From: Urechis unicinctus
Taxonomy: Eukaryota > Annelida > Polychaeta > Xenopneusta > Urechidae
DNA length: 64,000 nt
Reading direction: 5' to 3'
NCBI GenBank assembly: GCA_034190875.2
Contig: CM067355.1
Coordinates: 31,976,335 to 32,040,334, forward strand
In this document: piece after piece, positions 6,568-39,937 of the stretch
Numbering within the stretch: the first letter of the stretch is position 1
Layout of the letters: each line of letters begins with the position of its first letter
Made by a program: the position numbers and the translations under genes
Notes under the pieces: generated by a model
What the model saw: only the letters and a program-made list of their open reading frames with translations
What the model was told of the DNA's origin: nothing
Database searches by the model: none

Positions 6568-6599
<32 letters not shown>

Positions 6600-10216: not shown

Positions 10217-10433
10217 TCGACGGAAACAAATATAGAAATAAGGCTATTAATGGGGTTGGTTTTTTTTTTCACGCATGACAATCTCTTTGTATATGCGTAC
10301 AAATGTGTGCATGCATGCATGTTTTTATAAACTAATGAAAGAATGAATGAATATCTAAAGCTTCGCAATTCAAACATAACGCGTAAGTAATAAATTGGGT
10401 TTACAACAGCTGACTGACTTGAGTTCAAATGGG

Positions 10434-14658: not shown

Positions 14659-14889
14659 CAAATCCATGGTGACTGACCAGATATTCAGTCAATGGTAATG
14701 TGAAGAGCAATCATTACAAACTCTCCATCACACACTGATGTATGACTGGAATTGCTTCATATATTCCAGAAAGTCTGACAATATTTCATTGCACTGGCTA
14801 TGCTGTAGATCCTATTCAAATGGAGCACTTATATTACACTTATAAATGTACACATATATTACACTTATAAATGTTTCAGAATGGTCATA

Positions 14890-18728: not shown

Positions 18729-18878
18729 TCATAGAGCGGGTACCTTTATTTTCGTGTCCACCTGTGGCAAATTGACGCTTAATTGTTCGGCAGCTGCTTG
18801 CAGTTCAGAATCATGGAAGGACGAGTTTGGGCTGCCAGAACTTTGGCTAGTAGTGTCCGAAAGGTAGTCAGAGAGGAT
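18729..18878 (-). CDS. Gene A exon 9: tail end and stop
   Basis: 150 bp. The acceptor is TTCAACCAG|ATC. It encodes ILSDYLSDTTSQSSGSPNSS and ends VDTKIKVPAL then TGA. A GTACCC site shortly before the stop could act as a donor, but gene B stops at the equivalent place, so I treat this as the last exon. Confidence 0.75.
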   Translation of the reverse strand: MLSDYLSDTTSQSSGSPNSSFHDSELQAAAEQLSVNLPQVDTKIKVPAL

Positions 18879-21800
18879 CTGGTTGAAATATACATGGAAT
18901 AAAAATAAGGAATCCATGCTCTAAGGGAGACTCACATTGAACTATGGCGCTTAATGATAGACATTCAAGAATCCTGCCCCCAAAACACACGCTTTCATAC
19001 CCCTGTCTCACATCGATCATCCCAAATCCTTATAAATGAGCTCTTTTCAAAAATGAATTTGCACAAGAGATTTGAAAATGCGACGACGTTCACCTTCTCA
19101 GCATGATCCGGACGTGCGTGTTAAGATCATTCTTACCTCCGTATCCGTATCACCTTTACTGCTTGCTCCATCTTCGGCCAGATGCCTAGCCTTGCTCGGC
19201 AGGTAGTCTGGGCGCGGAGACATCTCAGCGCCGTTTGATGTCATGTTATCGAGTGATAGGTATTCACCTTCGACACTTTACGAACACATATATAGTCCGT
19301 TTGTAATTATTAGCTTGATAAGTAGAGGAATAACGTTGATGAATAGCACCCAACAACGAGCCTATCTGTGGCGTGAACATCAAAATGCTCCAAGGTCGTA
19401 TATACTCCAATGCGAATAGGGATACACACCTGCCTTCCTCGGTATTTTCTTTTCGTTTTGACTTTCTGTTCCGCAAAACTCTCACTGTAATTACAGCTAC
19501 AATAATTATCAGGATAAAAGCAGCTACACCAGACACTGATATTATTATAGTGTTCTGATGGACGCATGTCTCAGTGAATACGATGGGCAGGTAAGCCGAC
19601 TGACATCTGCAGCAGACGAATATTGATTGATATATATAGCAGACAAAGGCTTCTCCTACGTTAGACACATAGCTTATTGGCAGCGTTTGTTGAGAGGTCT
19701 GCCTGGTACATTGCAGATCATGCACCAAACTTAATCTTATTTACACTAAGCTTTATTCTGATTGATGCTTGATTCAGATATATTTGATTGACACCATACT
19801 TTTTTCAGATTGACCTACACAAGGTAACCACTGTGCTCACCCTAATCCAGGTACCAACTGAGCGAATCCTATTTCAGGTACCCAGAGAACTCACCCTAAC
19901 CCAGGTACCAACTGGGCGAATCCTATTCCATGTATCCACTAATTTTTTCCTAACCAAGGTACCCACTACCCCGGGAACCAACTAAGTTTATCCTCACCCA
20001 TGCACCAATTGAGCGAATCCTAATCCAGGTACCCACTGAGATCACCCTAATCCAGGTACTAACTGAGCTAATCCTAACCCATGTACAAACGGAGCGAATC
20101 CTAATTCAGGTATCCACTGAACTCATTGAACTCGGGTACCCTGTGTGATCATTTTTACACTGGTGCTCAGTGTTATCATATTTATGCAGGTACCCAATGT
20201 GATCATATCAATTCCATTACCCAGTGGGATCATATTAATTCAGGTACCAAGCGTGATCATCTTAGCCCAGGCAACCCAACGTGATCGTCTTAGCCCAGGT
20301 GCCCGTTACGATCATCTAGGTAACACATCACAACACGGGTAGGGGGGGGGGGGGGCGTACAACAGTCCGCCCACAACCATATGCATACGATATTCCACTA
20401 TTGATACCATCCCAGCAGCCAACTCTACCCACCTCCCATTTCCTTGTACATCAGTCTCTCACCTGCAGCCCATAAACTCCCCGTCACGCTCGTCACATTC
20501 GCGATGGTGTGCTCCATAGTCACATCGTATCAAGCAAGATGGGATTACACTTATCGCTTGACATCGGTAACACAAATCACACACTCCTGGTATTCTACAG
20601 AGGGATCCTCGAATTGAGTCCTCTGAAACATAAACTATGCCAATATAACATACCATCCGCGTGTTCACCAGCGGAACACACGCACCAGCGGCAACACTAT
20701 GCCTCGCAGTTCAACCCTGCGTTATCAAGTATAACTATTTGTTTATCAAGCATAACGAGCGATAACACAGATAACAAAACTTACTTTCGTTCTCTAATCC
20801 ATCCGTGATATTATCAAAATAATCTTCATTAAGTTCACGGCCTCCGATTGATTTATTCCTCAACGAAACAATAACTTCGTCTGCTATGAAGTCTATCAAA
20901 TTATCCGTTGTGTTGAAGTGATCATTTACTTCCCGTATGTCAAAAATGGCGAGGTAGTAACACACGAGAAAGGTGTCGGATGTATGGCCGCCTAATAGCG
21001 CCCTGCTGTTCACGAGAAAGGTGTCAGTTGTATGGCCGCCTGATTGCTTCCTGTTGTTCACGAGAAAGGTGTCAGGTGAGTAGCCGCCTGATTGCTTCCT
21101 GTTGTTCACGAGAAAGGTGTCAGGTGAGTAGCCGCCTGATTGCTTCCTGTTGTATTGTTCTAGGGACTCTTTAACACTGCACAGTCATTTGGCATTCATC
21201 TGACTATCCATTTACCCAATGTGTAGACAGATGACAGGTTTGTTCGGTTACAAAATTGCGATAAACTTTGAAAGATATATTACGTAATGTTCATAAGGGT
21301 GATCGCACTGTATCCGGGAGTGTCAGCAAAGGCGTTCTCGAGCTGGAATTAATGGACAAATATCAATAGTTTGTGTGGCGTAAGATATGCATTTGGTGAA
21401 TAACTCTATCGGCAGGTTATTTATTAATTTGATAAACGGCAATGTTTGTGGGGGAGAATACTACCAGCGACTTATCATCTTCTTGACAAATTTAGCGAAC
21501 AGCTCACAATTCAAGAGGAGAATTCTACCAACAACTAATGAGCCGAGCGCATTATTTCCTATTACTTAAATCAGATATGTGGATTCAATAAATTTATAAA
21601 GAGATTGCGCTAACCACTTTAGTGACGTCCTGTTCGATCTCGGCTGTGATATTTTCATCCTTCAAGTCTTCTGCACTGCCTTGAAAGCCGAGTGAGGATG
21701 GAACGTCAAGTGTCGCATTACCTGAGAACAAGCTCATATAGCAACGATGACAATCTCAAGAAAAGTTCTGAAGGGGTTGGCAGATAATAAAAAACAAATC

Positions 21801-24800
21801 TTATGCGTAAGAGAAGTATTGTTCCCCCTTACTTAATATGTTATATAGCATACCTACCTAGGACAGGATCCATCATAGGGGGTGGTGTAGGTGGGGAAGT
21901 TGTAGGAGACGTGGGGGTCGTGGTACCTTCTGTCGTAAATTCAGTAGATTTAGATGATGAATACACATCGGTGGCAGGTTCTAGTGTGCCCTTTTCGGTA
22001 GTTGGCTCTGTAGATTTGGATGTGGCGTCAATTTCTGTGGTTGATTCAGTTGTAAAATCATTTGGTGTAGAAGGGTCAGTTGACTTAGTTGTAAGATCAT
22101 CCGTTCTGGAAAAGGTTGTAGATTCAGTTGTCAAATCATCCATTGTAGAAAGGTCTGCGGATTCAGTTGTAAGATCATCCTCTGAAGAAAGGTCTGTGGA
22201 TTCAGGTGTAAGATCACTTGGTGAAGAAGGAACTGTGGATTCAGTTGTACGATCATCAGGTGTAGAAGGGAATGTGGATTCAGTTGTAAGATCATGCGTT
22301 GTAGAAGAGTCCGCGGATTCAGTTGTAAGAGCGCGCGTTGTAGAAGGGTCTGTGGATTCAGGTGTAAGATCATCCGGTGTAGACGGGTATGTGGATTCAG
22401 CGGTAAAATCATCCGTTGTAGAAGGGAATGTAGATTCAGTTGTTATATCATCTTTTGTAGAAGGGTCTGTGGATTCAATTGTTAGATCATCCGGTGTAGA
22501 AGGGTCTATGGATCCAGTTGTTAGATCATCCGGTGTAGAAGGGTCTGTGGATTCAGTTGTTAGATCATGCGTTGTAGAATGGTCTGTGGATTCAGTTGTT
22601 AGATCATGCGTTGTAGAAGGGTCTGTGGATTCAGTTGTAAGATCATCCGGTGTAGAATGGTTTGTAGATTCAGTTGTTAGATCATGCGTTATAGAAGGGT
22701 CTGTGGATTCAGTGGTAAATGCATGCGTTGTAGAAGGGTTCGTGCATTCAGTTGTTAGATCATGCGTTGTAGAAGGGAATGTGGATTCAGTTGTACGATC
22801 AATCGTTGTAGAAGGGTCTGTGGATTCAGTAGTAAAATCATCCGTTGTAGAAGGGTCTGTGGATTCAGTTGTAAGATCAACCGGTGTAGAATGGTCTGTG
22901 AATTCAGTTGTTAGAACATGCGTTGTAGAAGGGTCTGTGGATTCAGTTGTAAGATCATCCGGTGTCGACTGGTCTGTGGATTCAGTTGTAAGATCATGCG
23001 TTGTAGAAGGGTTTGTGGATTCAGTTGTTAGATCATGCGTTGTCGAATGGTCTGTGGATTCAGTTGTAAGATCATGCGTTGTAGAAGGGTTTGTGGATTC
23101 AGTTGTTAGATCATGCGTTGTAGAACGGTCTGTGGATTTAGTTGTTAGATCATGCGTTGTAGAAGGGTCTGTGGATTCAGTTGTAAAATCATCCGGTGTA
23201 GAATGGTCTGTGGATTCAGTTGTTAGATCATGCGTTGTAGAAGGGAATGTGGATTCAGTTGTAAGATCATTCGGTGTAGAAGGGTCTATGGATTCAGTTG
23301 TTATATCACCCGTTACAGAAGGGTACGTGGATTCAGTTGTAAGATCATGCGGTGTAGAATGGTCTGTGGATTCAGTTGTTAGATCATTCGTTGTAGAAGG
23401 GTCTGTGGATTCAGTTGTAAAATCATGCGTTGTAGAATGGTCTGTGGATTCAGTTGTTAGATCATGCGTTGTAGAAGGGTCTGTGGATTCAGTGGTAAGA
23501 GCATGCGTTGTAGAAGGGTTCGTGCATTCAGTTGTAAGATCATGCGTTGTAGAAGGGTCTGTGGATTCAGTTGTACGATCAATCGATGTAGAAGGGTCCA
23601 TGGATTCAGTAGTAAAATCATCCGTTGTAGAAGGGTCTGTGAATTCAGTTGTTAGATCATGCGTTGTAGAATGGTCTGTGGATTCAGTTGTTAGAACATG
23701 CGTTGTAGAATGGTCTGTGGATTCAATTTTTAGATCATCCGTTGTAGAATGGTCTGTGGATTCAGTTGTTAGAGCATGCGTTGTAGATGGGTCCGTAGAT
23801 TCAGTTGTAAGATCAGGCGTTGTAGAATGGTCTGTGGATTCAGTTTTTAGATCATGCGTTGCAGAAGGGTCTGTGGATTCAGTTGTTAGATCATGCGTTA
23901 CTGAAGGGTCTGTGGATTCAGTTGTAAAATCATGCGTTGTAGAATGGTCTGTGGATTCAGTTGTTAGATCATGCGTTGTAGTAGGGTCTGTGGATTCAGT
24001 TGCACGATCAATCGTTGTAGAAGAGTCCGTGGATACAGTTGTAAAATCATCCGTTGTAGAAGGGTCTGTGGATGCACTTGTTAGAACATGCGTTGTAGAA
24101 AGGTCTGTGGATTCAGTTGTTAGAACATGCGTTGTAGAAGGGTCTGTGGATTCAGCTGTTAGATCATGCGTTGTAGAATGGTCTGTGGATTCAGTTGATA
24201 GATCATGCGTTGTAGGAGGGTCTGTGGATTCATTTGTAAAATCATGCGTTGCAGAAGGGTCTTTGGATTCAGTTGTTAGATCATGCGTTATAGAAGGGTC
24301 TGTGGATTCAGTTGTAAAATCATGCGTTGTAGAATGGTCTGTGGATTCAGTTGTAAGATCATGCGTTGTAGATGGGTCCGTGTATTCAGTTGTAAGATCA
24401 TGCGTTGTAGAAGGGTCTTTGGATTCAGTTGTTAGATCATGCGTTGTAGAATGGTCTGTGGATTCAGTGGTAAGAGCATGCGTTGTAGAATGGTCCGTGG
24501 ATTCAGTTGTTAGATCATGCGTTGTAGAAGGGTCTGCGGATTCAGTTGTAAACTCAGCCATTGTAGTAGGGTCTGTGGGTGCACTCGTTAGATCATGCGT
24601 TGTAGAAGGGTCTGTGGATTCAGTTGTTAGATCATGCGTTGTAGAATGGTCTGTGGATGCAGATGTAAGATCATGCGTTGTAGGAGGGTCTGTGGATTCA
24701 GTTGTAAGATCATGCGTTGTAGAATGGTCTGTGGATTCAGTTGTTAGATCATGCGTTGTAGAAGTGTCTGTGGATTCATTTGTAAGATAATGCGTTGTCG

Positions 24801-26463
24801 AATGGTCTGTGGATTCAGTTGTAAGATCATGCGTTGTAGAATGGTCTGTGGATTCAGTTGTTAGATCATGCGTTGTAGAATGGTCTGTGGATTCAGTTGT
24901 TAGATCATGCGTTGTAGAAGGGTCTGTGGATTCAGTTGTAACATCATGCGTTGTAGAATGGTCTGTGGATTCAGTTGTAAGATCATGCGTTGTAGATGGG
25001 TCCGTGTATTCAGTTGTAAGATCATGCGTTGTAGAAGGGTCTGTGGATTCAGTTGTTAGATCATGCGTTGCAGAATGGTCTGTGGATTCAGTTGTTAGAT
25101 CATGCGTTGTAGAATGGTCCGTGGATTCAGTTGTAAAATCATGCGTTGTAGAAGGGAATGTGGATTCAGTTGTACGATCATTCGTTGTAGAAGGGTTCGT
25201 GGATTCAGTTGTAAAATTGTCCGTTGTAGAAGTGTATGTGGATTCAGTTGTAAGATAGTCTGGTGTAGAAGGGTCCGTGGATTCAGTGGTTATGTCATCC
25301 GGTGTTGAAGGGTCTGTTGATTCAGTTGTAAGATCGTGCGTTGTAGAAGTGTCTGTGGATTCAATTGTCAGATAATGCGTTGTCGAATGGTCTGTGGATT
25401 CAGTTGTAAGATCATGCGTTGTAGAATGGTCTGTGGTTTCAGTTGTAAAATCATGCGTTGTAGAATGGTCTGTGGATTCAGTTGTTAGATCATGCGTTAT
25501 AGAAGGGTCTGTGGATTCAGTTGTAAGTTCATGCGTTGTAGAAGGGTCTGTGGATTCAGTTGTTAGATCATGCGTTGCAGAATGGTCTGTGGATTCAGTT
25601 GTTAGATCATGCGTTGTAGAATGGTCCGTGGATTCAGTTGTACGATCATTCGTTGTAGAAGGGTCCTTGGATTCAGTTGTAGAGTAGGTTTGTTCCGAGG
25701 CTATGATTGGAAGTATATTCCACTGTGATGTTCTATGCCGATCATCAATGCCTAATTCCTCCTGCACAACCAAGTCGCTGGCGTTCTTGAAATCCTGACG
25801 CATTATGGTGGGATATTCCATAAAATCGCTCAACCGATTATTACCCTTGCGTGCCGTGTCTCCGGAACGCACCAGGGACATCAATCCTGAAAGCAAAGCA
25901 AGCTCTTTGAGGGAGTCTATAACTAGTCCCTGAATGGGTCACATAACACAGACGAAGAGTTTTGGGGATGCGTTGGTTTGGGAGGGGGGGGGGCTGAGTG
26001 CGGAGAAGTCAATGAATTTACAAGATGACAAATATATCAAAATATAGCGATGAAATCTGTCGAACCAGGAGTATTTGTATCTATCATATCGATAGTAATG
26101 ATGAATGTTTTATTTCATATAAGGCGCGAGCGCTTGAAAAATAGTGATAACAGAACGGAGTTTGAACCCATGACTAGTCACCGGCAAACCAAGAAACCGC
26201 CATCACGATGATAGCACGCCATATATTTCCATAAATCCAATACATTCCGCAATGTTTGTACTTACTTTCTTTGAATTACACAATCGTCTCCAAATATATA
26301 AAATGCACCCCCTCCCACAACCACGCGAGCATGTAAATTTCTGTGTGAAATAACCATGTTAACGCTATTGTATTTTTACTTCAACCACCAATTCGACACC
26401 ACAATTGAAAACATGGTTATACCCACCGATTGCAATGAGGAATAACCACCTCAAACTCGCCAT
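18729..26463 (-). CDS. Transmembrane mucin-like protein A (SEA domain, 13-residue repeats)
   Basis: Nine exons rebuilt by hand: 26427-26463, 21858-25886, 21615-21721, 21284-21342, 20785-21176, 20463-20622, 19430-19606, 19137-19275 and 18729-18878. They join without frame conflict to 1749 codons plus stop. Order in the protein: signal peptide (MASLRWLFLIAIG), unique segment to about residue 80, Ser/Thr repeats of TTESTDPSTTHDL to about 1280, a Pro/Thr-rich stem, SEA-type domain (about 1360-1540, with an internal 16-residue repeat), ten-cysteine EGF-like module, membrane helix (about 1613-1636), and a 113-residue tail with YLSL and DYLSD motifs. Membrane mucins of this plan form heavily O-glycosylated surface coats; that role is inferred from architecture. 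Gene B at 27850-39317 has the same plan and exon order. No transcript evidence is available here. Confidence 0.85.
19137..19275 (-). CDS. Gene A exon 8: cytoplasmic tail
   Basis: 139 bp. The acceptor CGTAAAG|T has a weak pyrimidine tract but is the only one that keeps phase. The donor is GAG|GTAAGA. It encodes VEGEYLSLDNMTSNGAEMSP then RPDYLPSK; YLSL fits a YxxPhi sorting motif. Confidence 0.72.
19430..19606 (-). CDS. Gene A exon 7: membrane helix
   Basis: 177 bp, the same length as gene B exon 7. The acceptor is TGCTGCAG|A and the donor GGCAG|GTGTGT. It encodes CQSAYLPIVFTETC, the helix TIIISVSGVAAFILIIIVAV, and the basic stop-transfer RVLRNRKSKRK. Confidence 0.87.
19800..20340. repeat. Intronic minisatellite with GGTACC units
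   Basis: Degenerate tandem units of about 30-36 bp (CAGGTACCAACTGAGCGAAT and variants) in the intron between gene A exons 6 and 7. A run of 16 G lies just beyond, at 20341-20356. Confidence 0.85.
20463..20622 (-). CDS. Gene A exon 6: cysteine-rich EGF-like module
   Basis: 160 bp. The acceptor is GTTTCAG|AG and the donor GCAG|GTGAGA. Eight cysteines lie here and two more follow at the start of exon 7. The combined spacing is C-5-C-2-C-2-C-8-C-3-C-8-C-9-C-1-C-12-C, identical to gene B. The final C-x-C..C resembles the end of an EGF fold, which in vertebrate membrane mucins flanks the SEA domain. Confidence 0.85.
20785..21176 (-). CDS. Gene A exon 5: SEA core with four 16-residue repeats
   Basis: 392 bp. 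The acceptor is GTGCAG|T and the donor GAAA|GTAAGT. VKESLEQY is followed by four copies of a 16-residue unit (NNRKQSGGYSPDTFLV and variants), then CYYLAIFDIREVNDHF and the rest of the SEA fold. Without three of the copies the exon would be 248 bp, close to the 260 bp of gene B. The G-S-V-V-V-like cleavage motif expected here is absent. Confidence 0.78.
20965..21156. repeat. Four in-frame 48-bp tandem repeats in a coding exon
   Basis: Unit (plus strand) starts CACGAGAAAGGTGTCAG and ends TTCCTGTTGTT. Four copies: the two nearest the start of the exon are nearly identical and the last is the most diverged. On the coding strand each unit contains a short pyrimidine run and AACAACAG|G, a possible 3' splice site in the same phase as the main acceptor. 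Confidence 0.92.
21284..21342 (-). CDS. Gene A exon 4: SEA helix and PGY motif
   Basis: 59 bp, the same length as gene B exon 4. The acceptor is ATTCCAG|CTC and the donor AC|GTAATA. It encodes LENAFADTPGYSAITLMNI, matching the F/Y-x-x-x-P-G-Y/F stretch of SEA domains. Confidence 0.8.
21615..21721 (-). CDS. Gene A exon 3: start of SEA domain
   Basis: 107 bp. The acceptor is TTCTCAG|GT and the donor GTG|GTTAGC. It encodes NATLDVPSSLGFQGSAEDLK followed by DENITAEIEQDVTKV. Gene B has the related TLNMSSSLRLNGTWGGDDLE at the same place. Confidence 0.75.
21858..25886 (-). CDS. Gene A exon 2: 39-bp repeat mucin array
   Basis: 4029 bp open throughout. The acceptor is GCTTTCAG|GA and the donor CTAG|GTAGGT. 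It starts with a unique segment (GLMSLVRSGDTARKGNNRLS), then more than 90 tandem 13-residue units of TTESTDPSTTHDL or TTESTDHSTTHDL, and closes with SPTTSPPTPPPMMDPVLG. The Ser/Thr content suits dense O-glycosylation. No frameshift is seen over the whole array, which argues that it is under coding constraint. Confidence 0.9.
22090..25690. repeat. 39-bp tandem array with higher-order structure
   Basis: Plus-strand unit GTTGTAGAAGGGTCTGTGGA then TTCAGTTGTTAGATCATGC. Rare variants recur at fixed distances: TTCGTGCATTCAG near 22740 and 23520, and AATCGNTGTAGAAG near 22801 and 23581, both exactly 780 bp (20 units) apart. This shows block duplication on top of single-unit repeats. It corresponds to the mucin array of gene A. 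Confidence 0.95.
26427..26463 (-). CDS. Gene A exon 1: start and signal peptide
   Basis: ATG at 26463. It encodes MASLRWLFLIAIG, a positively charged then hydrophobic start typical of a secretory signal. The donor CG|GTGGGT was chosen because it ends in phase 1, which exon 2 requires; the nearby GTATAA would shift the frame. Confidence 0.75.
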
Positions 26464-27140
26464 GATGTTACTCGCCCGGTGCGTGTTCACGTATTGAACT
26501 CATTGCCTTAAAGCTCTAGCTACATATCTTATTCAAGTCCTAGTGGATATTTTTTCGATTGTCAATCGTGAGGATTGTGTGGGTGTTTTTATGTATTGTT
26601 TCTGTGTGTTGGGTGTGTAGGATTTGAAGTCGGACGAGCTACTCATGCGGTGAAGAAACCGCCTTCTGTTCACTCAGAGTCTTCTAGTTTCGGTTGATAA
26701 GAAGAAGTAAGGTGACATGATATACTGGCTAACGTTGTCAGGCTCTTGTACACTTGATGAGCTGATAAGCCCTCCAGGTAGTACATTACACATTCCGTCA
26801 GTTTGGCAGCGCTTGACAAACTAAACTGTTCCTCACAAATCGTATATGACCTACGTCAGATCACGTCACCAGGCAACCTTGCGAGGCTAGAAATACAGGA
26901 AGTGCTCCCTATCAATGTTCATTGTAGCGCGGGATCAAAGGTACACAACTATGTGACGAAGCACTGACTGTGTAACGAGTCGATCAAAAATACATGAATG
27001 TACGGTAGTGCTTGTGTACATAGCTCAGTAGAGTTAGTTGAAAATCATTAAGTGCAATCGCATTCTGATGCACCGCTTCAAAAATATGTGTCAAAATATA
27101 TTTCAATGACCGCATGTACCGGTGTATACAAATCAAACAT
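26464..27140. promoter_or_regulatory. Upstream region of gene A with X-box-like and CRE-like sites
   Basis: At 26865-26877 GTCACC-A-GGCAAC fits the RFX X-box pattern GTNRCC-N-RGYAAC. Two CGTCA half-sites (26854-26858 and 26864-26868) overlap or precede it. They lie about 400 bp before the gene A start codon. Function is inferred from motif shape only. Nothing else is recognised in this stretch. Confidence 0.3.
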
Positions 27141-27149
27141 TCAAACACG

Positions 27150-27316
<167 letters not shown>

Positions 27317-27849
27317 CATGTACTGTTTATCAATATATCTTTGCATCATCAGTTGTGTTAGGCGGCTTGTAACAGCTGAGCTAGTTGTTCTTTTGTAAAA
27401 CAAAAGTGTGATATGCGTGGCCTGCACGTGGACATAAAACGAGTCGGTCAGAACAAATTCAATCCCGATGTCAAGTGGTGGTATCTTATGGGATGATCTA
27501 TCAGCGTAACCCCCAACACAGGTATGACAAGACAAGGACATGGTATCGCAGTGATAACAAGGCAATCAGCCGACACTGGTTTCTATCAGTCAATGTTATC
27601 ACAGAAACACGGGTGCAACATACACTATCATCCTACAAACCGCTTGAAAGCAGAACCTTCGAAACACATCAGTATAGCAGGACTTTGAAACGTCGGTTGA
27701 AGATTAACACAATGCCAATAACCCATCCTATGCGCCTGAAATGTGACGTCGCTATGTTAACCGCAGAAGCTTGACGGCGAGTTATATATGTTTTTGTGCC
27801 GTCGTCCTGATCATAACCATGGTGACGCAGTGGGCGGTGTCGGTTTCAA

Positions 27850-27960
27850 CTATAGATGGGTAGTGACGTCCATATCCACAGCTATTTCTTCCAGTCTTTG
27901 CCCTCCTCTCCGGTCGCCTCCCCTAACCCTTGATGAGTCGGACAGGTAGGCTGGGAATTC
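27850..27960 (-). CDS. Gene B exon 9: tail end and stop
   Basis: 111 bp. The acceptor is TTTGCTCAG|GAA. It encodes EFPAYLSDSSRVRGGDRRGG and ends MDVTTHL then TAG. YLSD followed by Ser/Thr is shared with gene A exon 9 (DYLSDTT), the most conserved tail motif of the pair. Confidence 0.82.
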   Translation of the reverse strand, partial: EFPAYLSDSSRVRGGDRRGGQRLEEIAVDMDVTTHL

Positions 27961-30900
27961 CTGAGCAAAGACAGTCTCTATCATAGTAACGGCATATTAT
28001 CAGAAAGTGGTGCATGGTCGTGAAAATACATCTTGAGGACCAAATTTATGAATGGCCTTATTAATTACTCGATGCTTGCTGTATTATAATGTAGTTAAAA
28101 CCTCCAATCGACCCTTTGGACTCTTCAAGACCAATGTCCTTTGGACTCATCAAGACCAATGTCTACACAACTCATGGCAGACTGTAATTACGTGAGACCT
28201 ACCGCCGGGCCATCATTGTCGTCGTTTGTTTCGCCCATAGAGACCGAAGAGTAATTGTCATTGTACAAATAAGCTGTATTATGATGGTAGTGATACTCCT
28301 GCAGTTCATCGCGACTTCGTGGTATCTGCTGGAAACCCGCTTCACTGAAATTAAACATGTATGTGTGTTATAGGTAATTAGCATATAAAGCCAGGTGTTT
28401 GTAAATAGAATAGAATAAACCGAATAATATAAGCGTCTCTTCGATAGTATTATACTGAAAGAGACGTATTTCTCCCCGTGACAATACCACAGGAACCTCT
28501 CATAACAACTTAATAAATTTGGAGCACATAGAGGCGAATAGACTGATGAAAAGATATCCGTCGATAGATACCGTCTTTATGGCCCAATGCTGCGGACTTT
28601 GAGTTGATCACCAGTTGTTGTTGTTTTCGGTTTTTTACATGCGTTATATAAAACAAGTGCCCACTCCACGAACCAGCCACCAACCTGCTATCTTCAAATG
28701 GCGCGCTTCCTTTCTTCTTTCGCTTCCGGTACAGCAGCACGCCGAGCAGTGTGATGGAGATGCTGAGGAGGCCCCCTCCGAGGCCCACTGTGAGGCCTAT
28801 GATGACGTCTTTATGGGTACACGATGTGGTGTGTGCTATTGGCAGGTAGGACTCCTGGCAGCTGTAAAACAACGCTTCTCCTTAGACATCATATCAAAGG
28901 TCACCTCTTCATGGCGATGTATGAGGAGGAGAAACTAGCGTCGATACTTCAACACCACTTACTTGCTCGACGGGATATTATTGTGTACATTTATAAATAA
29001 TTCAAGGATATTGCTATCATATATATTCGTTTTACTTAAAATCCGAACATGTAACATCCTTTATATTGACAGCCAATATTAAGCTGTGGACATGACCGAG
29101 GTTTATAAAACATAATATAAGAATATTACACGCATCCCTGGAACTTGCCATCGACCACGTGACATTGTCTATGCTCTCTGTCGTAGTCACAGCGAATATG
29201 ACACAAGGCGGTCAGCTCACGACCAGCACATACGTAACACGGTTGACAGGCAGTTGGGCGGTCACAGATGTTACCGGTCAGGTTACGAACTCTTTCCGCT
29301 GGCACATACAACACAGAGTGCGAATGAGTGGAAGAAACACTGGACTCATCGAAACTAAAGCATGCAATTCTTCATTGTGACTGTCAACACTCGTATGAGG
29401 AGCTCGAGAGGCAAGTGGCGATCTGATAGAAACATTAGATGGTGCTGCAGCCCAAACACTTGCCCTACAACTACAATTTTGAATTATTGATGCTTTTTAA
29501 CTGCAATTACTCTTGCGGATTATATGTAGTTTTGACATCGGTAATGCACTACTGTTCTCTGCAGGAAAGGATCGGTCCACTTTATCCGACCATACACACA
29601 CTTCAGTATAGTAAGGAATATATGCTACTACCATAGTGAAGCTTGAAGGCTATAGTTTTATTAAGCAACTTCATTTTGTCAATCACTGATTTCCTTCCTG
29701 ATGATATGAAGTCACGGTTGTTTGAATGCAGGAATTTGTTATGAAATATTGTATCAAAACAACTCACCTTCCAATTCTAATTCAGCTTTCACTACAGTAT
29801 CGATGTAATCGGCATCAATAACACGATCTCCCGTTAACTTGCCTTTCAGAGATTCAATACTCGTGTTGGATATTGTTGTGAACAGGTCATCGATAGAACC
29901 AAATGCATCGCTAACTTCTTCAAGGTCGTAGGTGACCGTGTAGTTGACAACGACACTTTTTCCTTCTTCCAGTTGATCTTCGACCTCTTCCATATGACCT
30001 CCGACCTCATTATGTACTTTTAAGTAGCTGTAAATGTATGAGGTAAAACGAGCATAACATCAGAATTGGAACGGGTTTCATTGATGACGATATGGTGATA
30101 AGGTGGTATGGCTTGAGTTGTACTCTGAATGACAAGGCGAGGGCATTTTATTCGTACCCTCATCAAGCAGCCCACTATACACCAGTAAGCTCTGTATCTT
30201 TTAGTGTTTGACCGCCCCTGTGGTAGAATAGAATAATTTTCGTGCTTCAATTGTAATTGTAAACGCTTTGTAGAGTTATTTCGTCTACCATTATCTTACA
30301 CATTAGGTGGATTTGCCGATTTCGCGCAGTTTTTGCTTTTTTTCGACTTCTGTGGTTTCTGGAAAATGGTGTAAAGTGGGTTGTTTGGTTGGTGTAAATT
30401 GGAGGGGTGAGGGGGTGGTATTTGTATAGTGGGGTGATTGGTTGGTGTTAAGTGAGGGGTGGGTGGTTGGTTTATAGTGGGTGGGTATCTGGTATAAAGT
30501 GGGGTGGATGGTTGGTGTAAAGTGGGGTGGCAGGTTGGTGTAAATGTGGGGGGTGCGGGTGGTTTGTGTGTGTGGGGTTGTGGGTTTGTGTTAAGTGGGG
30601 TGATTGGTTGGTGTAATGTGGAGTGGGTGGTTGGTTGGTGTAAAGGGGGGGGGGGGTGTTTGGTGTAAAGTGTGTGTGTGTGAGGGGAGGTGGTTTGTAA
30701 AAAGTAGGGTGGTTGGTTGGTGTAAAATGGGGATGGGAGTGGTTGGTGTAAAGTGGGGTTGGTGGTTGGTGTATATTCGGTTGGTGGATGGTGTAAAGTG
30801 GGCGGGTGGTTGGTGGGTTGGTGTATACTGGGGCGGGTGGTTGGTGGATATTGAGTGGGTGTGTGGTTGGTGTATAGTGAGTGGTTGGTTGGTGTATAGT

Positions 30901-33900
30901 GGGTGGGTGGGTTGTTGTATAATGGAGTGGGTAGTTGTTGTATAATGGGGTGGGTTGTTGGTGTATTGTGCGATGGGTGGTTGGTGTATAGTGAGATGCT
31001 ATATGAGGAAGCTAAATATTGCTATTTAAAATGTGAAGTTGATAATATGCGCTTTAGATTGTGATGGAGACCTTTTCGTTAAAGACAGTGTCCATCAAAT
31101 AAACTCAACGTAAAATGACCTGATGTGCTAAATGTGGAACTCCACCCCCCCCCCCCCTCCCCCCACTTCTACCCACCCTCTCTCTTTCCGCCCCTCTCAC
31201 TCAGACAGTTACACTCCTTACTTTATACAGTACACACATCCAGCTGAACAGAATATTACCTTGTAGGGGTTACATTCACATACCGGTATCCCGGGATCGG
31301 TGCGTATGCCTCGTTTAACTGCAACAAAAGGTTACATTTTGAATATCCCTTTGCTCCAATTCTTGCCCCACAAGTGCATATTTCTTCTATTTCATATTAA
31401 ATATTGCATGCCTTGTTGAGGGTAACACTCAAGGGGTGACTGCGTACAAAACAGTGCGATATATGTTTACTCTGTCTAATGTATTGAGGGTCGCTTGTTG
31501 GTGCTAGACATTATATTTTTACCGATACGATCAGGTTATCCTCCAAATCATCCCCGCCCCATGTGCCATTCAACCGAAGTGACGAGGACATGTTCAGTGT
31601 CTCCCCTCCTATATGTACAAATAAGCATGTAAGCAGACAGACAGTGAATTGGCAATAAGGTGGCGTAAACAATGATCCAATTGATTATCCACATCATTAT
31701 CATTAAGGTATTCAGGATGGGAAGAATGTTGAAACAGTGTTCCTGACGCCAGGTGATTGATAAGGTTTGGACAGCATTATTGTCATCCTCTGTTGCTTAC
31801 CCAAATCTGGTTTGTGAGTCGGAGGTGGAATTTTTGGGAGCGCTTGTGTTGTTAACGGTTCTGTCGAAGTCGGAGCAGTTGTTGATTGTTCAGTTGTTAT
31901 TGCTGTGCTGCTTGGTGACGATGGGAACTCGGCTCCTGTGGTGAAGGATTGTTCAGTTGTTATTGCTGTTCTGCTTGATGACGGTGGGAACTCGGCTCCT
32001 GTGGTGAAGGATTGTTCAGTTGTTATTGCTGTGCTGCTTGGTGACGGTGGAACTCAGCTCCTGTGGTGAAGGCTTGTTCATTGCTGCTGCTTGGTGATAG
32101 GCTCCTGTGGTGAGCTAGTTGTACCGCGTCAATATATTTGAGGTAATATCTGCCGAGACACCGCCCGCTGATGTTGTTGCATTCGTTTCAGACGTTGATC
32201 CTGTGGTGACATCAAGAGTTGTAGTTAAATCCGGTGATGTTTGTGACGTCCTTTCAGGAGTGATTTCGACTTCCGAAGTTGATATATTTGTCGACCCTTC
32301 CGGGGTCATTTCAGTCGAGATATCCAGCACCAAAGTTGTGGTTTCCATTAATATGCCAGAGGTGGATTCGCTTGAGTTAAGGTCGACAGTCGTTAAATCC
32401 GGTAATACATTTGAAGTGGATTCAGAATCCGTTTTTGATTCTGCGGCCGACGTGGTCAAATCCGTGATTACATATGACGTTGTATCAGCATGAAAGTCCG
32501 TCGTTGTCATATATGTAACAGCTACAGAAGTAGTGTCTGTGGCAAATGTGGTTAATATATTCCGCTCTGAAGTTGTTCCAGATTCTATCGTCGATTTGAT
32601 TACTACTGAGGACAAATCTGTGAATCTTACAGATGTGATTTCGCTATCTGAAGTAGTGTCAGATTCATTGGCGAACTCAGGGTATGAAGTTGCTAAGTCT
32701 GTCGACGTTTCAGATGCTGGTGTGAATTCAGGGTCCGAAGTTGTTAACCTTGTCGACGATTCGTCTGTAGTGTTGGATTCAGATGTTAATCCAGAGACGG
32801 AAGTTGTTAAATCTGTCGACGTTTCGGCTGTGGTGATGGATTCAGCTGTGAATTCAGGGTCTAAAGTTGGAAAATCTGTCAACGTTTCGGCTGTGGTGAT
32901 GGATTCAGTTGTGAATTCAAGGTGGGAAGTTGTTAAATCTGTCAACGTTTCGTCTGTAGTGTTGGATTCAGCTGGGGATTCAGGGTCGGAGTTGTTGAAT
33001 CTGTCGACTTTTCGTCTGTAGTGTTGATTTGGATTTCAGTTGTCGGTTTCGTCTGTAGTCAGGGATTCGGAAGGGTCGGAAGTTGTTGAATCTGTCGACG
33101 TTTCGTCTGTAGTGTTGGATCCAGTTGAGGATTCAGGGTCGGAAGTTGTTGAATCTGTCGACGTTTCGTCTGTAGTGTTGGATTCAGTTGAGGATTCAGG
33201 GTCGGAAGTTGTTGAATCTGTCGACGTTTCGTCTGTAGTGTTGGATTCAGTTGGGATTCAGGGTCGGAAGTTTGTTGAATCTGTCGAATCTGTAGTGTTG
33301 GATTCAGTTGCGGATTCAGGGTCGGAAGTTGTTGAATCTGTCGACGTTTCGTCAGTTGTTGGGGATTCAGGGTCGGGGAAGTTGTTGAATCTGTCGACGT
33401 TTCGTCTGTAGTGTAGGATTCAGTTGTGAATTCCGGGTCTGAAGTTGTTGAATCTGTCGACGTTTCGGACCATTCGGCTGTGGTGATAGATTCAGTTGTG
33501 AATTCCGGGGTCTGAAGTTGTTGAATCTGTCGACCATTCGGCTGTGGTGATAGATTCAGATTTGTGAATTCCGGGTCTGAAGTTGTTGAATCTGTCGACG
33601 TTTCGGCTGTGGTGATAGATTCAGTTGTGAATTCCGGGTCTGAAGTTGTTGAATCTGTCGACATTTCGGCTGTGGTGATAGATTCAGTTGTGAATTCCGG
33701 GTCTGAAGTTGTTGAATCTGTCGACATTTCGGCTGTGGTGATAGATTCAGTTGTGAATTCCGGGTCTGAAGTTGTTAAATCTGTCGACATTTCGGCTGTG
33801 GTGATAGATTCAGTTGTGAATTCCGGGTCTGAAGTTGTTGAATCTGTCGACATTTCGGCTGTGGTGATAGATTCAGTTGTGAATTCCGGGTCTGAAGTTG

Positions 33901-36900
33901 TTAAATCTGTCGACCATTCGGCTGTGGTGATAGATTCAGTTGTGAATTCCGGGTCTGAAGTTGTTGAATCTGTCGACGTTTCGGCTGTGGTGATAGATTC
34001 AGTTGTGGATTCAGGGTCGGAAGTTGTTGAATCTGTCGACGTTTCGTCTGTTGTGTTGGATTCAGTTGAGGATTCAGGGTCGGAAGTTGTTGAATCTGTC
34101 GACGTTTCGTCTGTAGTGTTTGATCCAGTTGAGGATTCAGGGTCGTAAGTTGTTGAATCTGTCGACGTTTCGTCTGTGTGTTGGTGTTGGATTTCAGTTG
34201 TGGATTCAGGGTCGGAAGTTGTTGATTTGTTGAATCTGTCGACGTTTCGTCTGTAGTGTTGGATTCAGTTGGGATTCAGGGTCGGAAGTTGTTGAATCTG
34301 TCGACGTTTCGTCTGTAGTGTTGGATTCAGTTGTGGATTCAGGGTCGGAAGTTGTTGAATCTGTCGACGTTTCGTCTGTAGTGTTGGATTCAGTTGGATT
34401 CAGGGTCGGAAGTTGTTGAATCTGTCGACGTTTCGGCTGTGGTGTAGATTCAGTTGTGATTCAGGGTCTGAAGTTGTTGAATCTGTCGACGTTTCGTCTG
34501 GAAGTGTTGGATGTCAGTTTGTCGTGGATTCGGAGATTCCGGGTCTGAAGTTGTTGAATTTGTCGACATTTCGGCTGTGGTTAGATTCAGTTGTGAATTC
34601 CGGGTCTGAAGTTGTTGAATCTGTCGACATTTCGGCTGTGTGTGATAGATTCAGTTGTTGTCGAATTCTGTAGTGTTGGATTCAGGGTCTGAAGTTGTTG
34701 AATCTGTCGACGTTTCGTCTGTAGTGTTGGATTCAGTTGGGGATTCAGGGTCGGAAGTTGTTGAATCTGTCGACGTTTCGTCTGTGTGTGTTGGATTCAG
34801 TTGGGATTCAGGGTCGGAAGTTGTTGAATCTGTCGACGTTTCGTCTGTGGTGTGTTGGATTCAGTTGGGGATTCCGGGTCGGAAGTTGTTGAATCTGTCG
34901 ACGTTTCTGTCGACGTTTCGTCTGTAGTGAATTGGATTCAGTTGTGATAGATTCAGGGTCGGGGAAGTTGTTGAATCTGTCGACGTTTCGGCTGTGGTGA
35001 TAGATTCAGTTGTGGATTCCGGGTCGGAAGTTGTTGAATCTGTCGACGTTTCGGCTGTGGTGATAGATTCAGTTGTGAATTCGGGTCTGAAGTTTGTTAA
35101 ATCTGTCGACGTTTCGGCTGTGGTGATAGATTCAGTTGTGAATTCCGGGTCTGAAGTTGTTGAATCTGTCGACGTTTCGGCTGTGGTGATAGATTCAGTT
35201 GTGAATTTCGGGTCTGAAGTTGTTGAATCTGTCGACGTTTCGGCTGTGGTGATAGATTCAGTTTTGGATTCCGGGTCTGAAGTTGTTGAATCTGGATTCG
35301 GCTGTGGTGATAGATTCAGTTGAATCTGTCGACGTTTCGTCTGTAGATTGTTGGATCAGTGTGACCATTCGGCTGTGGTGGATTCAGGGTCGGGTCTGAA
35401 GTTGTTGAATCTGTCGACGTTTTCGTCTGTGGTGTAGATTCAGTTGTGAATTCAGGGTCGGAAGTTGTTGAATCTGTCGACGTTTCGTCGTCTGTGGTGT
35501 TGGATTCAGTTTGGGATTCAGGGTCGGAAGTTGTTGAATCTGTCGACGTTTCGTCTGTAGTGTGGATTCAGTTTGGGATTCAGTGTGTGGATTCAGGGTC
35601 AGGGTCGGAAGTTGTTGAATCTGTCGACGTTTCGTCTGTAGTGTTGGATTCAGTTGGGGATTCAGGGTCGGAAGTTGTTGAATCTGTCGAAGTTTGTTGT
35701 AATTCTCAGGGTCGGAAGTTGATCTGTCGACGTTTTCGTCTGTAGTGTTGGATTCAGTTGTGAATTCGGGTCTGAAGTTGTTGAATTTGTCGACATTTCG
35801 GCTGTGGTGATAGATTCAGTTGTGAATTCCGGATCTGAAGTTGTTGAATTTGTCGACATTTCGGCTGTGGTGATAGATTCAGTTGTGAATTCCGGGTCTG
35901 AAGTTGTTGAATCTGTCGACGTTTCGTCTGTAGTGTTGGATTCAGTTGGGGATTCAGGGTCGGAAGTTGTTGAATCTGTCGACGTTTCGTCTGTAGTGTT
36001 GGATCCAGTTGGGGATTCAGGGTCGGAAGTTGTTAAATCTGTCGACGTTTCGTCTGTAGTGTTGGATTCAGTTGTGTGATTCCGGGTCTGAAGTTGTTGA
36101 ATCTGTCGACGTTTCGTCTGTAGTGTTGGATTCAGTTGGGGATTCAGGGTCGGAAGTTGTTGAATCTGTCGACGTTTCGTCTGTAGTGTTGGATTCAGTT
36201 GGGGATTCAGGGTCGGAAGTTGTTGAATCTGTCGACGATTTCGGCTGTGGTGATAGATTCAGTTGTGAATTCCGGATCTGAAGTTGTTGAATTTGTCGAC
36301 ATTTCGGCTGTGGTGATAGATTCAGTTGTGAATTCCGGGTCTGAAGTTGTTGAATCTGTCGACCATTCGGCTGTGGTGATAGATTCAGTTGTGAATTCCG
36401 GGTCGGAAGTTGTTGAATCTGTCGACGTTCGGCTGTGGTGATGGATTCAGTTGTGAATTCCGGGTCTGAAGTTGTTAAATCTGTCGACCATTCGGCTGTG
36501 GTGATAGATTCAGTTGTGAATTCCGGGTCGGAAGTTGTTGAATCTGTCGACGTTTCGTCTGTAGTGTTGGATTCAGTTGTGGATTCAGGGTCGGAAGTTG
36601 TTGAATCTGTCGACGTTTCGTCTGTAGTGTTGGATTCAGTTAGAGATTCAGGGTCGGAAGTTGTTGAATCTGTCGACGTTTCGTCTGTAGTGTTGGATAC
36701 AGTTGTGGATTCAGTTGGAATTCCGGGTCTGAAGTTGTTAAATCTGTCGACGTTTCGGCTGTGTGTGATGGATTCAGTTGTGAATTCAGGGTCTGAAGTT
36801 GAAGTTGTTGAATCTGTCGACTTCGGCTGTGTGTGATGGATTCAGTTGTGGATTCAGGGTCGGAAGTTGTTGAATCTGTCGACGTTTCGTCTGTAGTGTT

Positions 36901-39317
36901 GGATTCAGTTTGGGATTCAGGGTCGGAGTTGTTGTTAAATCTGTCGACGTTTGGGTCTGTGTGTTGGATTCAGGTGTAAATTCAGGGTCGGAAGTTGTTA
37001 AATCTGTCGACGTTTCGTCTGTGGTGCTTGGATTCAGTTGTGGATTCAGGGTCGGAAGTTGTTAAATCTGTCGACGTTTCGTCTGTAGTGTTGGATACAG
37101 TTTGGGATTCAGGGCCGGAAGTTGTTAAATCTGTCGACGTTGGGGCTGTGGTGTTGGATTCGACAAATTTCAGGGTCGGAAGTTGTTAAATCTGTCGACG
37201 TTTCGTCTGTGGTGCTTGATTCAGCTGTGGATTCAGGGTCGGAAGTTGTTAAATCTGTTGACGTTTCGTCTGTAGTGTTGGATACAGTTTGGGATTCAGG
37301 GCCGGAAGTTGTTAAATTCGACGTTGGGGCTGTGGTGTTGGATTCAGGTGTAAATTCAGGGTTGGAAGTTGTTGAATCTGTCGACGTTGGTGCTGTGTGT
37401 GATTTGGATTCAGTTGTGAATTCAGGGTCGGAAGTTGTTGAATCTGTCGACGTTTCGTCTGTAGTGTTGGATTCAGTTGTGGGATTCAGGGTCGGAAAGT
37501 TGTTTGAATCTGTCGACGTTTCGTCTGTAGTGTTGGATTCAGTTTGGGATTCAGGGTCGGAAGTTGTCGAAATCTGTCGACGTTGGTCTGTAGTGTTGGA
37601 TTCAGATGGATTCAGGGTCGGAAGTTGTTAAATCTGTCGACGTTTCGGCTGTGGTGCTTGATTCAGCTGTGGATTCAGGGTCGGAAGTTGTTGAATCTGT
37701 CGACGTTTCGTCTGTAGTGTTGGATACAGTTTGGGATTCAGGGCCGGAAGTTGTTAAATCTGTCGACGTTGGGGCTGTGGTGTTGGATTCAGATGTAAAT
37801 TCAGGGTCGGAAGTTGTTGAATCTGTCGACGTTTCGTCTGTGGTGCTTGATTCAGCTGTGGATTCAGGGTCGGAAGTTGTTAAATCTGTTGACGTTTCGT
37901 CTTGTAGTGTTGGATACAGTTTGGGATTCAGGGCCGGAAGTTGTTAAATCTGTCGACGTTGGGGCTGTGGTGTTGGATTCAGATGTAAATTCAGGGTCGG
38001 AAGTTGTTAAATCTGTCGACGTTTCGTCTGTGGTGCTTGATTCAGCTGTGGATTCAGGGTCGGAAGTTGTTAAATCTGTTGACGTTTCGTCTGTAGTGTT
38101 GGATACAGTTTGGGATTCAGGGTCGGAAGATGTTGAATCTGTCGACGTTTCGTCTGTAGTGTTGGATTCAGCTGTGGATTCAGGGTCGGAAGTTGTTAAA
38201 TCTGTCGACGTTTCGTCTGTAGTGTTGGATACATTTTGGGATTCAGGGTCGGAAGTTGTTGAATCTGTCGACGTTTCGTCTGTAGTGTTGGATTCAGCTG
38301 TGGATTCAGGGTCGGAAGTTGTTAAATCTGTCGACGTTTCGTCTGTAGTGTTGGATACATTTTGGGATTCAGGGTCGGAAGATGTTGAATCTGTCGACGT
38401 TTCGTCTGTAGTGTTGGATTCAGCTGTGGATTCAGGGTCGGAAGTTGTTAAATCTGTCGACGTTTTCGGCTGTGGTGATGGATTCGGTTGTGAATTCAGA
38501 GTCTAAAGTTGTTATATCTGTCAACGTTTCGGCTGTCAAATCCATGGTTGTGTAATCAGTAGATGGTGTTGCGGTCGATTCTGAATCCGGTGTCAACCCA
38601 ACGTTCGAAGTTGCTAAATTCGTAAATGTATAAGCGGTTTCAGTTGCATTATCTTGGCCTGGAATCGTTATATTAGTAGGTGCATATGAGTCAAATTCCT
38701 GGATGAAATCAATGTCCACAATTGTCGATTCTGAATTAGTTGTGAGATTAGGTCTCATATATGTTAAATCTTTAAAAGATTCTAAAGCGTTATCTTTTGT
38801 TGCGGAAAGGTCAGATTCGGATATTGGTAACTCATTATGCTGTGTATAAGGGTGAAGGTCGGTGTTTTCTCTGAAGTCAAGCGATCGGTCTATAGCTCGA
38901 ACTCGCCTTGTTTGCACGATGTCTTCATTATCCACTCGGTCTGTTACCGCATGGTATGTCGATGTCAATTTCATAATATGATAGACTGAAAAAAAAGGAC
39001 ATTTTACCATGTCAAGCAAATTGAATATCGTCGGACGGCCAGGTTTCTATATATTTACAACGTAACCAATTTAGGGAAAATGTTGTTTGTTTCCAAAAGC
39101 TCTATATATGCAAAATCATTCATTCACTCTGGTGTCGTATCAGCGCTACGATACTCTTATCAATCGAGCTAATGTAATCAAGCCACTTTAAATCTACATT
39201 GCGGGACAAACACTGTTCTCCGGCGATGTATCAATAATCTTCCTCGAGAATGATGGCACCCAGCTCACCTGCTCCTAGTGACGCGATGCTACATAGAATC
39301 CGCCACACAACAGCCAT
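27850..39317 (-). CDS. Transmembrane mucin-like protein B (SEA domain, 21-residue repeats)
   Basis: Nine exons parallel to gene A: 39269-39317, 31801-38985, 31523-31608, 31260-31318, 29768-30027, 29130-29298, 28685-28861, 28203-28344 and 27850-27960. All junction phases agree with one another and with gene A. Order: signal peptide, unique segment with an RRVR basic site, a 6.7-kb Ser/Thr array of 63-bp units, SEA domain with YAPIPGYRYVNV and GKSVVVNYTV, the ten-cysteine EGF-like module, a Gly-rich membrane helix, and a tail ending VTTHL, which fits a class I PDZ-binding end. The nominal length is 2745 residues, but many small indels break the frame inside the array. Either the assembly is wrong there or the gene is becoming a pseudogene. 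The non-repeat exons are intact. Confidence 0.78.
28203..28344 (-). CDS. Gene B exon 8: cytoplasmic tail
   Basis: 142 bp. The acceptor is TTAATTTCAG|T and the donor GCG|GTAGGT. It encodes EAGFQQIPRSRDELQEYHYH then a Tyr-rich, acidic stretch (YLYNDNYSSV), offering several possible phosphotyrosine sites. Confidence 0.82.
28685..28861 (-). CDS. Gene B exon 7: membrane helix
   Basis: 177 bp. The acceptor is GTTTTACAG|C and the donor AGCAG|GTTGGT. CQESYLPIAHTTSC leads into the helix VIIGLTVGLGGGLLSISITL and the basic RKRKKK. The Gly-rich helix could favour tight helix packing. Confidence 0.87.
29130..29298 (-). CDS. Gene B exon 6: cysteine-rich EGF-like module
   Basis: 169 bp. The acceptor is TGTGCCAG|CG and the donor GCGT|GTAATA. 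CDRPTACQPCYVC and CHIRCDYDREHRQC are visible. Cysteine spacing is identical to gene A although most other residues differ. Confidence 0.85.
29768..30027 (-). CDS. Gene B exon 5: SEA core
   Basis: 260 bp. The acceptor is CATTTACAG|C and the donor GAAG|GTGAGT. It encodes YLKVHNEVGGHMEEVEDQLE, then EGKSVVVNYTVTYDLEEV and the closing helices. GKSVVV sits where self-cleaving SEA domains have G-S-V-V-V, so cleavage is possible but uncertain. Gene A has a 48-bp repeat expansion at this place; gene B does not. Confidence 0.85.
30350..31000. repeat. G/T-rich degenerate minisatellite in gene B intron
   Basis: Units of about 22-25 bp built on GTGTAAAGTGGGGTGG and TGGTTGGT lie in the intron between gene B exons 4 and 5. 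On the coding strand this is a C/A-rich tract. A C-rich run lies at 31143-31170. Confidence 0.88.
31260..31318 (-). CDS. Gene B exon 4: SEA PGY segment
   Basis: 59 bp. The acceptor is TTGCAG|TTA and the donor AAG|GTAATA. It encodes LNEAYAPIPGYRYVNVTPT, closer to the SEA consensus than gene A. Confidence 0.82.
31523..31608 (-). CDS. Gene B exon 3: start of SEA domain
   Basis: 86 bp. The acceptor is ACATATAG|GA and the donor TCG|GTAAAA. It encodes GETLNMSSSLRLNGTWGGDD then LEDNLIVS, alignable with gene A exon 3 but seven codons shorter at its end. Confidence 0.75.
31801..38985 (-). CDS. Gene B exon 2: 63-bp repeat mucin array, frame broken
   Basis: 7185 bp. The acceptor is TTTTTTTCAG|TC and the donor TTGG|GTAAGC. 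A unique segment of about 130 codons (YHIMKLTSTYHAVTDRVDNE onward) precedes about 100 units of 21 residues such as STDSTTSDPEFTTESITTAE. Diverged units at the 3' end keep the 63-bp period (TTGAEFPPSSS then TAITTEQS), and the exon closes LPKIPPPTHKPDLG. Numerous one- or two-base indels interrupt the frame, mainly between about 32990 and 38470, often in short G or T runs. The net exon length is still a multiple of three for the required phases. Confidence 0.7.
31860..38560. repeat. 63-bp tandem array
   Basis: Plus-strand unit contains GTTGAATCTGTCGACGTTTC, a GCTGTGGTGATAGATTCAG-type segment and TTGTGAATTCCGGGTCTGAA. The central units are very similar to one another; both edges are diverged. It corresponds to the mucin array of gene B. 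Confidence 0.95.
39269..39317 (-). CDS. Gene B exon 1: start and signal peptide
   Basis: ATG at 39317. It encodes MAVVWRILCSIASLGAG, hydrophobic with one early Arg. The donor is GCAG|GTGAGC, phase 1 as in gene A. Confidence 0.75.
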
Positions 39318-39811: not shown

Positions 39812-39937
39812 GAGGACTTAATCATCGAAGAGGACTTAATCATCGAAGAGGACTTAATCATCGAAGAGGACTTAATCATCGAAGATGACTTAATCATCGA
39901 AGGGGACTTAATCATCGAAGAGGACTTAATCATCGAA
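39812..39937. repeat. 18-bp minisatellite, seven copies
   Basis: GAGGACTTAATCATCGAA repeated seven times, with one-base variants in copies 5 and 6. Confidence 0.97.

Follow-up and report, generated by a model that had tools for sequence, protein, structure and literature searches.

Genes A and B are two neighbouring genes on the minus strand of a 64,000-nucleotide stretch of chromosome C14 of the annelid Urechis unicinctus (GenBank assembly GCA_034190875.2, contig CM067355.1, positions 31,976,335 to 32,040,334), which is hereafter called the window. The two genes are probably diverged members, each of its own subfamily, of a multigene family. The proteins of this family would be mucin-like and tethered to the membrane, and their putative cleavage loop changes fast. 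The evidence supports that A and B are homologous and encode type I membrane proteins, the topology of which is predicted from the sequence. Exons 3–9 of the two genes align with 92 identities in 308 (30%), 60 gap columns, and E = 9e-36 in BLASTP. The Smith–Waterman score of the pair is 329, compared with a maximum of 60 among 300 shuffles of B. A preliminary description of this DNA had noted only scattered shared residues outside the repeat arrays, which is too weak a statement for a similarity that is continuous.

Gene structure and domain order

The exon ends of A and B were located and translated. Each gene has nine exons, and all 16 introns of the pair have GT-AG ends. The exit phases at the eight junctions are 1, 1, 0, 2, 1, 2, 2, and 0 in both genes, and exons 4 and 7 have the same lengths of 59 and 177 nucleotides. 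The matched nine-exon structure, the identical phases, and the equal exons of the preliminary description are thus borne out. The products of both genes consist of an N-terminal hydrophobic stretch, a Ser/Thr array, a folded module, a module with ten cysteines, one membrane helix, and a tail, in this order. Of the domain plan proposed earlier, the module order, array, cysteine module, helix, and tail stand, and the identification of the folded and cysteine modules as SEA and EGF is not supported by profile searches. The genes are arranged head to tail, 1.4 kb apart. Their features, in window positions, are the following.

26427–26463, minus strand: gene A exon 1 (37 nucleotides), with the start codon and the greater part of the signal-like hydrophobic stretch (hydropathy peak at residues 1–19)
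21858–25886, minus strand: gene A exon 2 (4029 nucleotides, without stop), conserved N-terminal stretch followed by the Thr/Ser array
22043–25681, minus strand: gene A array of a 39-bp repeat, 93.3 copies, encoding a 13-residue unit with the consensus TTESTDPSTTHDL
21615–21721, minus strand: gene A exon 3 (107 nucleotides), beginning of the SEA-like module
21284–21342, minus strand: gene A exon 4 (59 nucleotides)
20785–21176, minus strand: gene A exon 5 (392 nucleotides), SEA-like module and internal repeat
20963–21153, minus strand: gene A exon 5 tandem repeat of 48 bp (16 residues), 4.0 copies, at the variable loop
20463–20622, minus strand: gene A exon 6 (160 nucleotides), cysteines 1–8
19430–19606, minus strand: gene A exon 7 (177 nucleotides), cysteines 9–10 and membrane helix
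19137–19275, minus strand: gene A exon 8 (139 nucleotides), cytoplasmic tail
18729–18878, minus strand: gene A exon 9 (150 nucleotides), tail and stop, with the same end point in the related copy A''
39269–39317, minus strand: gene B exon 1 (49 nucleotides), start codon and hydrophobic stretch, as judged by hydropathy
31801–38985, minus strand: gene B exon 2 as modelled (7185 nucleotides), 70 stops, array out of frame
33072–38536, minus strand: gene B array of a 63-bp repeat, 84.6 copies, encoding a 21-residue unit, with many insertions and deletions
31523–31608, minus strand: gene B exon 3 (86 nucleotides), beginning of the SEA-like module
31260–31318, minus strand: gene B exon 4 (59 nucleotides)
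29768–30027, minus strand: gene B exon 5 (260 nucleotides), SEA-like module with EEGKSVVVNYTV
29130–29298, minus strand: gene B exon 6 (169 nucleotides), cysteines 1–8
28685–28861, minus strand: gene B exon 7 (177 nucleotides), cysteines 9–10 and membrane helix
28203–28344, minus strand: gene B exon 8 (142 nucleotides), cytoplasmic tail
27850–27960, minus strand: gene B exon 9 (111 nucleotides), tail and stop

The product of gene A is fully open, with a length of 1749 residues and a Ser plus Thr content of 40%. Its hydropathy peaks only at residues 1–19 (1.61) and 1615–1633 (3.07). The helix encoded by exon 7 of gene B has a hydropathy of 2.09, and an 11-residue N-terminal peak reaches 2.26. 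As judged by hydropathy alone, both products combine a signal-like N-terminus with a single helix on the C-terminal side. About 0.5 kb upstream of the start of gene B, at window positions 39812–39937, an 18-bp unit (GAGGACTTAATCATCGAA) is present in seven copies; the exact unit occurs at no second place in the 240 kb of sequence joined around the window.

Members of the family on four chromosomes

Searches of the 1.19-Gb genome of U. unicinctus with exons 3–9 of gene B resulted in 54 matches at E ≤ 10, those with exons 3–7 of gene A in 50 matches at E ≤ 1, and those with a member from chromosome C16 in 26 matches at E ≤ 1. The matches group into at least 17 places on chromosomes C12, C14, C16, and C17, including the window pair: eight at 31.86–32.06 Mb of C14, five at 42.89–42.99 Mb of C12, three on C16, and one on C17. 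These counts are lower bounds, and weaker or partial places at 50.480 Mb of C16, 30.817 and 30.827 Mb of C14, and 26.31 Mb of C11 are outside them. The preliminary description covered the window pair alone, which is a small part of the family. No description of the family sharing the anchor of A and B turned up in the titles and abstract openings of the literature searched.

The order of a B gene followed by an A gene is found three times on C14, in the window pair, in a downstream B'–A' pair, and in an inverted B''–A'' set. In the inverted set, only exons 7–9 of B'' are seen, with a stop in exon 8, and A'' is next to it. Exon 3 of A' contains a one-nucleotide deletion, and a further B copy consists of a broken exon 5. 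Positions 14–59 kb of the window are colinear with the following approximately 47 kb, and the long rows outside arrays are 79–96% identical among the matches listed. The duplicated blocks that include the B–A pair extend over 13–59 kb and 59–98 kb in window coordinates, the latter corresponding to 32.035–32.075 Mb of C14. Satellites with a 31-bp unit are located within the blocks at 14886–15597 and 62137–62654.

The window genes are arranged head to tail at a distance of 1.4 kb, and two other nearby B–A sets share their order, which might suggest that they are an ordinary recent tandem duplicate pair and nothing more. This explanation is highly improbable, as the identity between A and B is only 30%, the two are placed on separate branches with 100/99 support each, and they have relatives on four chromosomes. 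In a tree of ten sequences, A, B, C12, and C16 form four groups with 98–100% support; the tree does not settle how A, B, and C12 join, and the program cautions about long branches. Because A and B share 30% identity and the copies of the block 79–96%, the sequences indicate that the split between A and B is old, as had been proposed in the preliminary description, and that the block was copied later. The recent event is the copying of the whole B–A block, with 82–96% identity among the matches listed, rather than the split.

The exon models of the paralogs were produced by a script that required the phases of A and B; therefore, they agree with the conserved phases and do not constitute a test of them. 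At least 16 exon seeds have no script model, in part because of strict splice scores, and exons already known in A and B escaped the script as well. At the loci without a script model, the frames were read by eye. Exons 4 and 5 of member C12c (C12 positions 42926501–42930500) seem, by eye, to be joined in one frame, with the intron apparently missing.

The SEA-like module

Exons 3–5 were previously assigned to a SEA domain. The joined exons have no SEA match in Pfam or among the PDB sequences. PF01390 is absent at E ≤ 10 from exons 3–9 of A and B and from nine paralog segments, with HMMER filters removing most matches above 0.1. Among the hits of a PDB profile search are designed proteins with E values from 4.3e-5 to 0.0012 and an ADGRF1 chain with E = 0.42, which are not taken as support, and the hhalign comparison of the module with MUC1 provided no support for SEA either. 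A search of the complete genome with the SEA profile of Pfam found nothing, yet it also found nothing in 14 control genomes, so this result says nothing either way. The autoproteolysis motif G-S-V-V-V (or GSIVA) is present in neither A nor B.

The structure predicted for exon 5 of gene B, the one contiguous piece that was modelled, has the order strand–strand–helix–helix–strand. It is of low confidence, with a mean predicted local distance difference test score of 61 and a predicted template modelling score of 0.43, and is least certain at residues 13–23, between the two strands. Fold searches with this low-confidence model found no convincing match. In membrane mucins, the SEA domain is located between the stalk and the membrane. 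The order of elements in the exon 5 model, together with the position of the module between the stalk and the membrane, keeps the SEA identity of exons 3–5 plausible, though unproven, and the module is called SEA-like here.

Alternatively, exons 3–5 might form a small alpha/beta domain other than SEA, with the ten-cysteine module as a separate new fold, and the profile results described above agree with this. We consider this alternative rather unlikely. SEA domains are hard to detect, as that of MUC1 reaches the next SEA chain in the PDB only at E = 0.066. The element order of exon 5 of gene B resembles the second half of SEA, but the mean score of the model is low; B retains SVVV where the second strand begins; and the module is placed as SEA is in membrane mucins.

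The ten-cysteine module

The module encoded by exons 6 and 7 contains ten cysteines, which together with YLP...C.H are invariant in all nine aligned paralogs; A' and C12b also have the ten cysteines. Allowing for alignment gaps, the anchor pattern C-x5-C-x2-C-Y-x-C-x8-C-x3-C-x(7,8)-C-x(8,9)-C-x-C-x(10,12)-C-x-H precedes the helix. The alignment does not include C16a, in which a stop follows after six cysteines, C12c, the frame of which is lost near the eighth cysteine, C12d, in which exon 6 was not found, and C17, in which only exon 7 was modelled. The module had been described as EGF-like. It does not have the six-cysteine pattern of EGF, and profile searches of Pfam at E ≤ 10 found no EGF match in A, B, or nine paralogs. 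There is also no convincing match to any other Pfam family or to PDB sequences, among which the helix of the sodium-channel beta-2 subunit was reached at E = 0.095.

Variation of the putative cleavage loop

The paralogs differ most in the loop between the two strands of the SEA-like module. The loops of C12a, C12c, C12d, and C12e contain KTRNRR or KTRIRR, and those of C16b and C16c contain SRRKRRAV. An R-X-K/R-R site is thus found in six of 13 loops, all from C12 and C16 members, and in none of the six C14 loops or that of C16a. In the place of the autoproteolysis motif, A has GGHTSDTFLV, B has EEGKSVVV, B' has EEGGVVV, and C12 and C16 members have sequences of the IVADY or IIAEY type. The loop of B is EEGKSVVVNYTV, and that of B' is EEGGVVVNYTV. 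The loop of gene A contains four copies of a 16-residue unit (NNRKQSGG...DTFLV), of which A' and A'' have about two and A''' has one. The 48-bp repeat, which the preliminary description does not mention, accounts for the length of 392 nucleotides of exon 5 in A relative to 260 in B.

According to PMC6954182, furin cuts Gpr126 (human) and Notch2 in the same SEA loop where autoproteolysis of MUC1 occurs; not every SEA domain has the autoproteolysis motif, Gpr126 being cut by furin instead. The C12 members and two C16 members are comparable to Gpr126 (ADGRG6) and Notch2 in that an RXRR or RRKRR sequence directly precedes the strand at which SEA domains are cut. By contrast, the proteins and their topology differ, the fold and cutting of the family are putative, and the motif is absent from genes A and B of the window. 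It is conceivable, but doubtful, that the treatment of the cleavage loop varies within this one family, with a near-canonical SVVV strand in the B branch, furin-type RXRR or RRKRR in C12 and two of the three C16 members, and loss of every known site with tandem growth of loop and strand to between one and four 16-residue copies in the A branch, and that the module with ten cysteines is a domain next to the membrane that has not been described before. The family would then have switched among loop states, and the mechanism of stalk release would be an evolvable trait switching between paralogs.

Ser/Thr arrays and the frame of gene B

Both A and B have a long tandem array rich in Ser and Thr, the frame of which is broken overall in B. 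Exon 2 of gene A is open over 1343 codons with no stop. The consensus of the 13-residue unit is matched by 95 of 98 units, and Thr and Ser constitute 35% and 15% of the array. Single changes in this array comprise 84 synonymous and 170 replacement changes, compared with 31 and 85 possible, which indicates only weak constraint on its sequence. The giant array proposed earlier for both genes is open in A, and the array exon of B, with 70 in-frame stops, is not. The B array has 144 insertion or deletion events relative to its 63-bp unit in 5480 nucleotides (38540–33060), and two intact runs within it have Ser plus Thr contents of 40% and 41%. On C14, the array of gene A, with 4.0 kb, and those of A', B', and A''' are open, that of A''' having its first stop after 191 codons and a donor that was not placed. 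The two longest of the six, which measure 7.2 kb in B and 8.4 kb in A'', are broken; the frame also changes in the long array of C12e. Since frame breaks track array length, albeit among six arrays only, errors of assembly or consensus in long arrays are suspected and judged likelier than biological loss. Homopolymer read errors as the cause were not borne out: 31 of 59 one-nucleotide insertions match a neighbour (expected fraction 0.43), and 12 of 37 one-nucleotide deletions are within homopolymers (expected 0.44), so there is no clear homopolymer bias.

The ratio of non-synonymous to synonymous substitution rates (dN/dS), calculated from exons 3, 5, 6, and 7, is 0.60 for A–A'' and 0.35 for A–A''' (208 codons each) and 0.40 for A–A' (173 codons, exon 3 left out). 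The values for the A anchor are in line with purifying selection. The B–B' ratio is 0.94 over 226 codons, with no purifying selection visible on B. This ratio and the indels without the homopolymer bias typical of simple read error leave some room for gene B being a real pseudogene, the array frame of which is truly lost, so that only A and some other copies yield protein. The 70 stops and 144 events in the array and the damage of other family copies outside arrays, the stop in exon 8 of B'' and the deletion in exon 3 of A', fit such a loss. However, exons 1 and 3–9 of gene B (1053 nucleotides) have no internal stops and retain every splice site, and breaks that follow array length, including the shifts in C12e, fit consensus errors. 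The pseudogene explanation is thus given a minor share of the probability, and gene B is presumed to be functional.

Members on C12 and C17 likewise have Ser/Thr arrays ahead of their anchors. Exon 2 of C16c has a 364-residue frame with an acidic repeat and SGSGSGEGSGE, a stretch of a kind able to carry glycosaminoglycans, followed by a short Pro/Thr/Ser stretch and no mucin array. The composition of this exon indicates that the family is not mucin-like throughout.

Proposed function and comparison with membrane mucins

Several of these results weigh against A and B being members of a mucin-like family with a SEA-type anchor: the absence of PF01390 and EGF profiles, the broken array frame of B, its dN/dS value relative to B', and C16c, in which only a short Pro/Thr/Ser stretch follows an acid-rich region with a Ser plus Thr content of 22%. 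A membrane-tethered, mucin-like family is nevertheless preferred. In this mechanism, the Ser/Thr array would carry dense O-glycosylation and project from the cell surface as a stalk. The SEA-like module, ten-cysteine module, single membrane helix, and short tail would form the anchor, with a predicted topology. If the SEA-like module behaves as SEA proteins do, cutting would most likely occur at its central loop, by a furin-type cut in C12 and C16 members, with no cutting in A. The state of the loop would then govern the shedding of the stalk under shear. The proteins would most likely form a glycosylated coat on the surface of epithelial cells, with the stalk retained or let go at the SEA-like loop, and serve as a barrier or for lubrication.

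Vertebrate membrane mucins have the same plan of stalk, juxtamembrane module, cysteine module, helix, and tail, and membrane mucins are thought to arise repeatedly by the joining of Ser/Thr repeats to an anchor. A and B are similar to MUC1, MUC3/12/17, MUC13, and MUC16 in the signal-like start, one giant repeat exon, juxtamembrane modules, helix, and short tail. Unlike vertebrate SEA-type mucins, they have no Pfam SEA or EGF match, ten cysteines instead of six, and no G-S-V-V-V. The order of stalk, SEA, cysteine module, and helix is also that of interphotoreceptor matrix proteoglycans and other SEA–EGF–helix proteins; A and B have a similar module order, and the SGSGSGEGSGE stretch of C16c is a further point of resemblance, but the searches of Pfam and PDB gave no sequence match.

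With its shared anchor, very different stalks, differing loops, and co-copied B–A blocks, the family would make it possible to ask which part of the proteins is selected. A related question is whether, in SEA-like domains, cleavage by furin and self-cleavage can substitute for one another. Genes of this type might be recognized in other genomes by their ten-cysteine module, which would be a useful marker. In addition, the broken arrays serve as a warning that assembly may make array-bearing genes look like pseudogenes.

Surroundings of the gene pair

An Rfam search found no match. A Pfam scan of ten flanking frames resulted in a sole, weak match, to PF02931 (E = 8.7e-05, 22.5 bits, below the cut-off of 26 bits), in an open frame at 10021–10446 on the minus strand, which is probably an exon of a nicotinic-receptor-like gene. 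Window positions 300–2478 and 6449–8618 are near-identical tandem copies (98.3% over 2180 columns) with a unit of about 6.1–6.5 kb, and positions 2476–6860 match sequence to the left of the window at 97.2%. Close to the other end of the window, the 1.5 kb at 60340–61825 match their own reverse complement at 88%.

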